Part shown: in pieces, positions 3,648 to 43,077 of the stretch
Layout: the number at the start of each line of letters is the position of its first letter
Numbering within the stretch: position 1 is the stretch's first letter
Assembly: GCF_001317345.1 (NCBI RefSeq)
Contig: NZ_JXCG01000006.1
Coordinates: 1 to 64,000, forward strand
Length of the DNA: 64,000 nucleotides
DNA from: Thermococcus sp. EP1
GTDB lineage: Archaea; Methanobacteriota_B; Thermococci; Thermococcales; Thermococcaceae
Direction: 5' to 3'
Translations under genes and position numbers: made by a program
The notes under the pieces: generated by a model
What the model was told of the DNA's origin: nothing
Databases searched by the model: none
The model's input: the letters and a program-made list of their open reading frames with translations, nothing else

Positions 3648-4805
3648 TCAAACCCTCCTTAATATGGTTACAGTTATGTTTGAACCCGTTCCACCTATGT
3701 TCTGAGTAAGGCCTACCTCCGCATCAGGCACTTGATTTGGAGCTTCGCCCCTAAGCTGCCATACTGCCTCTACTGTTTGATAAACTCCAGTTGCACCAAC
3801 CGGGTGTCCTCTTGCTTTCAATCCACCTAGTGTTTGGATTGGGTAGTCTCCATCAATCGCTATTTGTCCCTCCTTAGCTAACATAGCGCCTTTTCCTCTC
3901 TCTGCAGCCCCTATAGACTCCAAACTTAGGGCCGCCATGACTGTGAATGCATCGTGCACCTCGAAGAAGTCTATATCCTCCACACCTATACCAGCCATCT
4001 TGTAAGCTCTTTCTGCGGCTATTTTGGCTGCTTTCAGCAGAAGAAGGTCTTTTCTGTTAGCGAGGCTTATAGTGTCTATAGCTCTTCCCATTCCCGCAAC
4101 CTTGATCATCTTGGCTTTGTCCACAAATTCCTTGGCCTTCTCCTCAGTGGTGATAATAACTGCCGCAGCTCCATCAGCTATTGGAGAAGCATCAAAAAGC
4201 TTCAATGGATCAGCTATATAAGGACTCCTCATAACAGTCTCTACCTTGATTACCTTTTTGAACATGGCATATGGATTCTTGGCACCGTTTGCGTGAGCAT
4301 TAACTGCAAATAGGGCTAAGTCCTCTTCAGTGTACCCATATTCTTTCATGTAAAGCCTCATTGCAAGGGCATTCAGGGCCACAAAACTAACTCCATGGAA
4401 AAGCTCCCACTCGGCATCAGCTGCATATGCCAAGTATCTCGTTGCATCACTTGGCCACGCATCTGTCATCTTTTCAACGCCTACAACAGCAACCACGTCC
4501 TCAAGACCGCTCATTACAGCCTTTACACCTTCTTGGACTGCAGCTCCACCACTTGCACATGCACCCTCAATTTTAACTGCGGGGATATTCCCAAGACCTG
4601 CCCAATCTGCTATAAGGGCTCCAAGGTTTTCTTGTTCAACAAATGAGCCTGAAGCCATGTTTCCAACATAAAGTGAATCTACTTTGTCAACTCCGGCATC
4701 TTCCATAGCATTAAGCAGAGCCTCAACAGCTAGGTCTCTAAGACCAAGTTTCCAGTGCTCTCCAACAGGAGTTAAGCCCACACCAATAATCACTGGCTTT
4801 CTCAT
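3648..4805 (-). CDS. Acetyl-CoA C-acetyltransferase (thiolase, mevalonate pathway)
   Basis: A 385-residue archaeal thiolase that condenses two acetyl-CoA to acetoacetyl-CoA. Nucleophile Cys83 lies in EGACASGGAA; the His of FFEVHDAFTVMAAL and the GGLKARGHPVGATG loop are present, while the second catalytic Cys of bacterial thiolases is replaced near NIGGTGSN, as usual in the archaeal SCP2-thiolase group. The start at 4805 follows GGTGGTTGAA; the frame extends 17 codons upstream into the HMG-CoA synthase gene and is not used. It sits 10 bases after HMG-CoA synthase and just before the DUF35 gene. Confidence 0.92.
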   Translation of the reverse strand: MRKPVIIGVGLTPVGEHWKLGLRDLAVEALLNAMEDAGVDKVDSLYVGNMASGSFVEQENLGALIADWAGLGNIPAVKIEGACASGGAAVQEGVKAVMSGLEDVVAVVGVEKMTDAWPSDATRYLAYAADAEWELFHGVSFVALNALAMRLYMKEYGYTEEDLALFAVNAHANGAKNPYAMFKKVIKVETVMRSPYIADPLKLFDASPIADGAAAVIITTEEKAKEFVDKAKMIKVAGMGRAIDTISLANRKDLLLLKAAKIAAERAYKMAGIGVEDIDFFEVHDAFTVMAALSLESIGAAERGKGAMLAKEGQIAIDGDYPIQTLGGLKARGHPVGATGVYQTVEAVWQLRGEAPNQVPDAEVGLTQNIGGTGSNITVTILRRV

Positions 4806-39051: not shown

Positions 39052-39282
39052 ATGGAAAAAAAGCTGTATAGAAGCAGAAAAAATAGAATGTTATTTGGAG
39101 TTTGTGGTGGACTAGCAGAATATTTTAACGTCGATCCTACTCTTGTAAGGATACTATTTATAATACTACTCATAGGAAGTGTAGGGACGGCGGTTTTGTT
39201 ATATCTTCTCCTGGCGGTTGTAATGCCCGAGGAGCCTAAGAAAGGAGGTGAAGAAATTGGAAAAGAAATTAAAGAGGAGTAA
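39052..39282 (+). CDS. PspC-domain membrane protein (first of a pair)
   Basis: A 76-residue PspC domain: MEKKLYRSRKNRMLFGVCGGLAEYFNVDP-type start and one membrane helix (LVRILFIILLIGSVGTAVLLYLLLAVVM), then an acidic/basic tail. PspC proteins sense membrane stress in bacteria; the archaeal role is unknown. Its 3' end overlaps the next PspC gene by 26 bases. Confidence 0.85.
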   Translation: MEKKLYRSRKNRMLFGVCGGLAEYFNVDPTLVRILFIILLIGSVGTAVLLYLLLAVVMPEEPKKGGEEIGKEIKEE

Positions 39283-39697
39283 GAAAAACAAGGTATTTTT
39301 AGGAGTTTTAGGTGGCATTGCTGAATATCTTGAAGTGGATCCCACAATAATAAGGATATTATTTATCCTTTTATGTCTCGTGGAACCAGTGTTCATCTTA
39401 GCATACTTCCTAATGGCTATAGTTATGCCCGAAGAGGAAGAAATAGTTACTGCAGAAAAGATCCCTCAAAAATTTGAAAAGATAGTTGAAGAGACTGGAG
39501 AAAAAGTGGAAGAACTCGCCAAGAAAGCTCCAAAAATTGAGAAAAAAGACGATACAAAACTCTTTGGAATAGCTCTTGTCATCCTAGGAACTGCATTACT
39601 CTTAAAAGAATTTATCCCAATTCCCTTCTTAGGTCTTAGAGAAATCGTTGCCGTGCTTATCTTGCTCCTTGGACTATACTTGGTGGCGAGGGGATAA
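39257..39697 (+). CDS. PspC-domain membrane protein (second of a pair)
   Basis: A 146-residue protein: a PspC domain with helix IIRILFILLCLVEPVFILAYFLMAIVM, a charged helical linker (about residues 70-100) and two C-terminal hydrophobic segments. TTG 39257 is chosen because it lies seven bases after AAGGAGGT and because the product then begins MEKKLKRSKKN, parallel to MEKKLYRSRKN of the preceding paralogue; a GTG three codons upstream lies inside the ribosome binding site. The pair arose by duplication. Confidence 0.83.
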   Translation: MEKKLKRSKKNKVFLGVLGGIAEYLEVDPTIIRILFILLCLVEPVFILAYFLMAIVMPEEEEIVTAEKIPQKFEKIVEETGEKVEELAKKAPKIEKKDDTKLFGIALVILGTALLLKEFIPIPFLGLREIVAVLILLLGLYLVARG

Positions 39698-40578: not shown

Positions 40579-41469
40579 ATGGAAACATGGGAGGTTGTTA
40601 AAGCCTTTACCATAGGACCGTTACTAGAAGTAGCAATACCTAAACCAGGAAATGTAAATAGGTATAAAGACTTTGAAGACCTTACATTTTATCATTTTCT
40701 TTTTGCCAATACAGCAGTTATGGATGTGTTTTTCGAGGCTGCAGAAAGAGGAAAACAAATTAAAAATAAAGAACTCTTACCCCGAGATGCAAGGCTTGGG
40801 GAACTCATAAAAAAAGCTGTTGAAAACTCCAAGAGAATCCAGGACTCCAATCCAAACTTTGGCATCATAACTTTAGCAGTCCCCTTAATCATCGGTCTTA
40901 CATGGAGTGGAGACATTAATTCCGCTAGAGAAAAAACTAAGCTCTTAATACACTCCTCAACTCCCCAAGATACTATCGAGTTCTACAGAGCAATAAGGAT
41001 TGCAAATCCAAAAGGAATTAAAAAGGGAGTAGAATACGATGTGTATGACGACTCCTCATTTGACGCAATTGTGAAAGATGAAGTAAACTTGTGGAAACTT
41101 GCCGAAATCTCAAGCAAAAGAGAGTTGATATTCAAAGAATGGCTAAATGGGTATGAACTTAGCTATTCTACCTTTGAAAAGCTCAAACAACTTACCTCCT
41201 CACTTCCTCTTGAAAAAGCTGCCTTACGAGCATTTCTAGAACTTTTAGCAACTAAGGTGGACACACTTATAATAAGAAAAGCAGGTATTGAAGAAGCTAT
41301 TCTTGTCCAAGAGACTGCTAAAAGAGCATTGAATGGGAAAGTCACCTTCCAAGAACTTGATAGCTTTCTGAGAGAAAAGAAAGATCTAAGAAACCCCGGA
41401 AGTCTGGCGGACATTATGGCTATTGCTCTAAGTATGCTCGTTCTAAGTGGATACAAACTCAATCTTTGA
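40579..41469 (+). CDS. CitG/MdcB-family protein (triphosphoribosyl-dephospho-CoA synthase-like)
   Basis: A 296-residue all-helical protein with CitG-family signatures: [34 protein letters not shown] and the C-terminal [22 protein letters not shown]. In bacteria CitG makes the prosthetic-group precursor of citrate or malonate lyase from ATP and dephospho-CoA; no lyase genes occur here, so the archaeal product is probably different. It follows the PspC operon by six bases and overlaps the convergent encapsulin gene by 11. Confidence 0.83.
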
Positions 41470-41743
41470 TTATCTTAACTCTTTTAGCCCCCCCAAGACC
41501 AAGGCCTAAAACCTTTGAATCGATAACGACAGCGTCTTTTCCGAGCTCTTCAACCACCCTTATTGGAAGTCCAGAAATCTCTGAGACTGTATCTTCCCCT
41601 CCAAATTCTGCATTAACTTGATTTTTCAGGAATTCGTATGCCTCTTTCCCAAATAAAACAATATCTGGCTCAAACCCTTCCATCTTAAGTTCATTGGCCT
41701 TTTCTTCAACGCCACTTAAAACCCTAATAAGTTCTCCCCTCAT
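41459..41743 (-). CDS. DUF1884 A-domain (family 4) encapsulin
   Basis: A 94-residue protein: [18 protein letters not shown], then [16 protein letters not shown], and the C-terminus [24 protein letters not shown]. This is the pattern of Pfam DUF1884 (for example Pyrococcus furiosus PF0899, a solved structure), recently classed as family 4 encapsulins, which keep only the A-domain of the HK97 phage capsid fold. The ATG at 41743 follows GGTGGG; an ATG four codons earlier is part of that site. It is 34 bases downstream of an OsmC-like gene on the same strand, a candidate cargo or partner. Confidence 0.8.
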
Positions 41744-41777
41744 CAAACCCACCATATAAAATTTAGAAAAGAGAGCC

Positions 41778-42176
41778 TTAAACTTTTTCCCTAATAATCT
41801 CGTAAGAATAAGTTACCTCAGTACCACTTAATTTCAAATGAGCACCCACAGAACAGTATTTTGTTTGACTGAGGTCTATTGCTCTTTTAGCTTTTTCCTC
41901 GTTCACGTCTCCATAGATTTTATAATGGAGATGGACTTTTGTGTAGATTCTAGGGTACTCATCTCTCCTTTCACCAGTTATTTCGACTTCTAGACCTTCT
42001 ATGGGCTCCCGCATTTTTTGCAATATCATTACTACATCTATTGAGGTACATCCAGCAACACTAAGAAGGAGAGTCTTCATTGGAGAGATACCACTTTCTC
42101 CAAAAATTATTTTCCCACCCTCCTCTGTTAGAGCTTCGAACTTCTTATCCTCAATCCATTTGACGACTCCTTTCAT
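41778..42176 (-). CDS. OsmC-family peroxide-reductase-like protein
   Basis: A 132-residue OsmC/Ohr-fold protein with both redox Cys: Cys43 in [18 protein letters not shown] and Cys108 in [12 protein letters not shown]. Such proteins reduce organic hydroperoxides with dithiols. GGTGGTCC precedes the ATG. It is the first gene of a two-gene unit with the DUF1884 encapsulin, suggesting it may be housed in or work with it. Confidence 0.87.
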
Positions 42177-42234: not shown

Positions 42235-43077
42235 ATGTATATTAGAGCTTTTGACCCATGGAAATCCAAGCTCTGCACATGTCCCCCTAAGTACACTCTC
42301 AATATATATACTGGATGCGATCACGCGTGCGTTTACTGTTATATAACCTCCTACATTCCCAAAGCCTTTAAAGTGAGGATAAAGGAGAATCTTTTCCTAT
42401 ATCTAGAAAGAGAACTTAGAAGCTTCGACAAACGCTTTATAATAGCCTTGTCATATTCCTCTGATCCATACCCTACAATAGATAAAGAGCTTGAAATAAC
42501 CCGAAAAGTTCTCAAACTCTTACAAAGATACAATGTCAGATGTTTAATCCTCACCAAGTCGGATTTGTTTGAACGAGACTTGGATATACTAAAAGACCTA
42601 AAGTGTGCCGTGGGAATCACTGTGACCACGGTAGACAAGAAAAAAGCCAAGTTATTGGAGCCAAATGCTCCTTCTCCATCGGAGAGAATTAAAGCCCTAA
42701 AACAGGCAAAAGAAGAAGGAATTCCCATCTACGCCAGAATTGATCCTATAATACCATTCTACACCTGGAAAGATTTTGATAAGACTCTTAAAGCCTTGAA
42801 CTTTGTGTCCCATATTACCGTTTCTACTCTAAAACTGCGCCCAGATTCATGGAAGAGAATGGAGGCAAAATTCCCCACATTAATGGAAAGACTTTCCCCT
42901 CTTTATAAAAAGGGAGAAAAAATTGCTGGATACTACTATCTACCTAAAGAAATAAGGTTCAAGATTCTTAGAGAGGCCCGAGAAAAGATTGAAGGAATGG
43001 GTATAACGTTTGGTTCTTGCCGAGAGGGATACTATTCCTACCCAAGCTGCGATGGCTCCCATTTGGTACCCCCATGA
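42235..43077 (+). CDS. Radical SAM protein (SPL/MJ0683-like)
   Basis: A 280-residue radical SAM protein with Cys28, Cys32 and Cys35 in TGCDHACVYCYI, and the GGE-region equivalent ALSYSSDPYPTIDKE. It resembles the archaeal/bacterial group annotated as DNA repair photolyase-like (COG1533), whose substrate is mostly unknown. An additional early CTCPP motif is typical of the group. A TTTTTTAAATC box about 25 bases before the ATG suggests a leaderless transcript. Confidence 0.85.
   Translation: MYIRAFDPWKSKLCTCPPKYTLNIYTGCDHACVYCYITSYIPKAFKVRIKENLFLYLERELRSFDKRFIIALSYSSDPYPTIDKELEITRKVLKLLQRYNVRCLILTKSDLFERDLDILKDLKCAVGITVTTVDKKKAKLLEPNAPSPSERIKALKQAKEEGIPIYARIDPIIPFYTWKDFDKTLKALNFVSHITVSTLKLRPDSWKRMEAKFPTLMERLSPLYKKGEKIAGYYYLPKEIRFKILREAREKIEGMGITFGSCREGYYSYPSCDGSHLVPP

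Follow-up and report, generated by a model that had tools for sequence, protein, structure and literature searches.

According to the passages on Family 4 in Andreas and Giessen 2021 (PMC8346489), this group of encapsulins was defined from PF08967 and is present in all sequenced Pyrococcus and Thermococcus. The same passages describe four operon types, among which the OsmC type, often with MarC, is restricted to Family 4A; they also cite P. furiosus proteomics in which GAPDH and the A-domain (4B) protein of that archaeon form a stable complex, and they treat shell formation and cargo binding by Family 4 as hypotheses. Family 4 is without a defined loading signal and its cargo has been assigned by gene order only. 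In P. furiosus, the gene of the A-domain protein PF0899 (PDB 2PK8) adjoins the [NiFe] sulfhydrogenase (PMC8346489), whereas the gene considered here has an OsmC neighbour.

The window, a 64,000-nucleotide stretch of Thermococcus sp. EP1 DNA, contains an OsmC gene directly upstream of a 4A gene on the same strand, 34 nt separating the stop codon of OsmC from the start of the A-domain gene (Table 1). The first-pass annotation of this DNA, made from the sequence alone, had located both open reading frames and the gap correctly and had put OsmC forward as a possible partner of the A-domain protein. The OsmC-4A pairing is in fact already known: it was published in 2021, the window locus is the known OsmC operon type, differing from the description in PMC8346489 by the lack of a MarC gene, and the pairing idea is a rediscovery of a published locus type. 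On the other side, a convergent CitG-type gene overlaps the 3' end of the A-domain gene by 11 nt. Further along the window (39052-39697), two tandem open reading frames with a similar PspC-like N-terminal sequence (by reading) are followed by a membrane protein.

Table 1. Features of the OsmC/A-domain locus (positions in the window)
Feature	Position	Strand	Basis or remark
CitG/triphosphoribosyl-transferase-like gene, convergent	40579..41469	+	PF01874 183 bits
Family 4A A-domain encapsulin protein	41459..41743	-	94 aa; longest ORF reaches 41755
34-nt intergenic stretch, GGTGG Shine-Dalgarno-like before A-domain start	41744..41777	-	sequence
Promoter-like BRE/TATA element GGAAAAAGTTTAA of A-domain gene	41778..41790	-	spacing conserved across 4A genes
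YhfA-type OsmC family protein, 132 aa, Cys43 and Cys108	41778..42176	-	PF02566 64.4 bits
Radical SAM protein, divergent from OsmC	42235..43077	+	PF04055

Family and fold of the A-domain protein

Profile and structure comparisons support the assignment of the 94-residue protein to the Family 4 (A-domain) encapsulins, taken as a statement on family and fold, and bear out what the first-pass annotation had recognized. The protein matched NF041190 (encap_f4a, 'family 4A encapsulin nanocompartment shell protein') at 157.5 bits against a cut-off of 90, and PF08967, the profile that the annotation had named as a check, at 108.3 bits against a cut-off of 31.4; PF0899 is 56% identical to it (E 1.9e-30) and has the same fold. 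A 98-residue reading starting at ATG 41755 was considered and dropped for the 94-residue one (ATG 41743), because the GGTGG Shine-Dalgarno precedes the latter and the aligned start is conserved, being Met/Val-Arg-Gly in non-Pyrococcus 4A genes. In the first helix of 4A proteins, R2, G3, L5, I6, L9, E13, E14, K15, N17, E18 and L19 are invariant across loci with OsmC, MarC, hydrogenase or DHH neighbours.

An AlphaFold2 model of the window protein, for which 22 relatives were also used (mean pLDDT 77.9), was compared with the PDB by VIA-align 2, a Foldseek ranking being made as well. 2PK8 aligned with a Z of 15.4 and an rmsd of 1.3 over 90 residues, and the 49 further VIA-align 2 matches listed after it were all HK97-fold phage capsid, encapsulin or related phage proteins, which align to the model over their A-domain. 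Among them, HK97 itself (1OHG, residues 250-381) gave a Z of 8.9 and an rmsd of 3.3 over 91 residues and the T. maritima encapsulin (7KQ5, residues 143-265) a Z of 7.8, with the caveat that a Z near 8 may reflect a common arrangement. A true A-domain fold can nevertheless be argued because one superfamily fills the listed matches and covers the whole model; the predicted structure is thus that of an HK97 A-domain standing alone. PHROG profiles gave no match to the A-domain protein even at an E of 1, and its kinship with phage capsids, to which the model points, therefore rests on the fold.

Distribution and gene neighbourhood in Thermococcaceae

Of 94 Thermococcaceae genomes searched with PF08967, 92 gave a match; the other listed genomes of the phylum gave none, and neither did any of 14 control genomes. 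Thermococcaceae genomes usually carry two copies, one 4A and one 4B. This is also the case of the genome studied here, whose second A-domain gene (locus L033, positions 128171-128407 of contig C3 of genome G000), outside the window, is of the 4B type and overlaps the 3' end of the DeoC gene. We assembled 109 loci for synteny, comprising 57 4A loci from as many Thermococcaceae genomes and 52 4B loci, and searched for OsmC with HMMs on all open reading frames, since long antisense frames mask it otherwise.

The first-pass annotation had suggested examining the co-occurrence of OsmC and the A-domain gene: OsmC lies upstream of the 4A gene on the same strand in 37 of the 57 genomes and is absent from that place in the other 20. 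Where linked, it is directly adjacent (17 genomes, with a gap of 20-70 nt), separated by MarC (11) or separated by MarC and an additional gene (9). In these nine Thermococcus genomes the additional gene comes after MarC, sometimes in two copies, and encodes a protein of about 290 residues without a Pfam match (for example L042:2166-3056, L046, L053 and L102, among others). The 4A loci without OsmC have a hydrogenase (8), MarC alone (7) or other neighbours (5). One Pyrococcus-like genome has an orphan 4A gene (L099 of G038, 3968-4279), upstream of which there is no hydrogenase and no OsmC.

Of the 20 genomes lacking the linkage, 17 have a YhfA-type OsmC at another place; as for the remaining three, it was not found in G032, and G024 and G040 are incomplete genomes. 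The divergent radical-SAM neighbour seen in the window is kept in all 17 unlinked OsmC loci and also in linked loci wherever the flank was covered. T. kodakarensis illustrates the separated state: some 35 kb separate its OsmC gene (TK0189), which has the same radical-SAM neighbour, from its 4A gene, which adjoins that of a DHH-family protein. The radical SAM-OsmC association is stronger than that of OsmC with the A-domain gene. For its part, the 4A gene has a convergent CitG gene in 48 of the 57 loci (it is missing only in a Pyrococcus-like genus, g2) and retains it where OsmC is absent from the locus. On a 55-genome tree, which is rough, having been built from the neighbouring genes with part of its rows gappy, the OsmC-4A linkage was gained or lost six times or more, the 4A gene itself being retained each time. 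Radical SAM-OsmC and 4A-CitG are thus the more persistent units, and OsmC-4A would be their meeting point. The situation differs at the 52 4B loci, where DeoC is adjacent in 44 and GAPDH in 7, one further GAPDH being more distant.

We also considered correlations of evolutionary distance as a sign of co-evolution between the 4A protein and OsmC; they were not specific, the partial r with 4A in linked genomes being no higher for OsmC (0.67) than for CitG (0.74) or the radical-SAM protein (0.78).

A promoter-like element before the 4A gene

A promoter of its own seems to serve the 4A gene, as judged from a BRE/TATA-like element, GGAAAAAGTTTAA, whose last three bases are the TAA stop codon of OsmC. 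In the consensus derived from P. furiosus dRNA-seq, the last A of the TATA box lies 23 bp before the start site (PMC6640164); transcription would then be predicted to begin about 12 nt before the 4A ATG, just upstream of the ribosome-binding site. Among 40 distinct upstream sequences, 30 carry TTT[AT]A at -43 to -33 of the 4A start, with a peak at -39 to -36, against a mean of 3.2 and a maximum of 8 in 200 shuffles, figures that are descriptive and not an independent confirmation, the motif and position range having been picked after viewing the sequences. The spacing from the 4A start is constant whatever the upstream gene. By eye, the remaining Thermococcus sequences show variants (CTTAAA, GTTAATA) at the same position, and in those of Pyrococcus TTTTTAT lies at about -29, where leaderless mRNAs would place it. 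OsmC starts, used as a positive control, display the same TATA spacing, while none of the 17 4B starts, located inside the 3' end of deoC, has TTT[AT]A. A similar element precedes MarC in 8 of 18 cases, so internal promoters are common here.

The passages of PMC8346489 on 4A contain no discussion of such an element or of the repeated separation from OsmC.

Explanations of the pairing and nature of the OsmC protein

We consider it rather probable that a block of radical SAM and OsmC (sometimes with MarC) and another of the A-domain gene and CitG, each conserved in its own right, adjoin at this locus, that the A-domain gene would mainly be transcribed from its own promoter overlapping the OsmC stop codon, that the A-domain protein would serve a function common to all Thermococcaceae, and that OsmC would be at most one optional client of it. 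Several observations pull the other way: chance would link the two genes in far fewer than 37 of 57 genomes, the 20-70-nt gap in the 17 genomes with direct adjacency permits co-transcription by read-through, and both proteins exist in nearly all genomes, where they could meet in trans, separate promoters being no obstacle to an interaction. Promoters inside predicted operons are frequent in compact archaeal genomes. The neighbourhood comparisons nonetheless indicate that OsmC is probably not a dedicated partner of the 4A protein. A broader proposal, which we regard as evenly balanced, is that the 4A protein is independently expressed and near-universal in Thermococcaceae, that its job is independent of the neighbouring enzyme and that the published 4A 'operon types' (hydrogenase, OsmC) describe neighbourhood, not cargo, unlike 4B with its ties to DeoC or GAPDH.

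The first-pass annotation had leaned towards the opposite solution, which follows Andreas and Giessen: a two-gene operon whose OsmC is bound or enclosed by an A-domain assembly, forming a peroxide-detoxifying complex. The OsmC operon type described in PMC8346489, the constant order of OsmC then A-domain gene on one strand in the 37 linked genomes and the stable complex of GAPDH with an A-domain protein in the P. furiosus proteomics cited there all speak for it. That complex, however, involves the 4B protein with GAPDH and not 4A with OsmC; the linkage was lost repeatedly, and each of the two genes retains other neighbours when apart; a promoter-like element precedes the 4A gene itself; and the evolutionary distances of the 4A protein correlate no better with those of OsmC than with those of CitG and radical SAM. 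Moreover, when 37 linked OsmC sequences were compared with 17 unlinked ones, no loading-signal-like tail or motif peculiar to the linked proteins was seen. A search of the available literature on 4A partners and on interactions of PF0899 or TK0189 returned nothing beyond PMC8346489. We thus view a dedicated pair as unlikely; OsmC as a partner is a possible, weakly supported idea, sustained by the linkage and not favoured by the comparative evidence. Assigning cargo by gene order may therefore mislead for 4A, although the rule looks sound for 4B, whose gene abuts or overlaps deoC and is without a promoter-like element of its own. DeoC and GAPDH are then the first candidates for 4B, and partners of 4A are better sought by pull-down than in the neighbourhood.

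With two conserved blocks and an independently transcribed 4A gene as the preferred reading, the A-domain protein would most likely self-associate to form small rings or facets serving as scaffolds or stabilisers of proteins. A 'shell' made of the window protein is hypothetical, and our literature search found no published assembly of any Family 4 protein. The alignment spans the A-domain only, so that, of the HK97 fold, the N-arm, the E-loop and the greater part of the P-domain are missing, and 2PK8 crystallised as a dimer, a state for which the His-tag is named as a possible cause (PMC8346489). It is conceivable, albeit doubtful, that the protein now forms no shell at all and acts as a small dimer or adaptor retaining only the HK97 A-domain fold.

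The nature of the OsmC protein bears on the proposed peroxide detoxification. The annotation was right about the family and about the two redox cysteines: the peroxidatic and resolving residues, Cys43 and Cys108, are present in the window protein and in every orthologue examined, 37 of them upstream-linked and 17 unlinked. Calling the protein a peroxide reductase is less secure, given what is published on its subfamily. Among solved structures, E. coli YhfA (1ML8, 4e-24, full length) is its best match and shares both cysteines with it, although the score of the window protein against the YhfA equivalog NF008009 (102.7 bits) is under the cut-off of 138. Of the three subfamilies, Ohr and OsmC are established peroxidases and YhfA is not (PMC8945050, PMC4069020), and the Arg and Glu that neighbour the peroxidatic Cys are described as missing from YhfA proteins (PMC8945050). 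All orthologues examined, aligned among themselves, have Met33 before the Cys motif, presumably at the position of the Glu of Ohr. These features make a non-peroxidase, YhfA-type thiol protein with another function a tentative option, one opposed by the invariance of both cysteines and by the T. kodakarensis orthologue TK0189, identified by its sequence and a matching mass (15.34 kDa) and pI (5.85). TK0189 is cited as a defence protein against oxidative stress and is raised in osmotic stress, and the window protein may be pictured as a thiol enzyme that uses two cysteines in redox or osmotic stress. It also matches phrog_30510 (4.4e-26), and YhfA-type OsmC genes therefore occur in viruses too.
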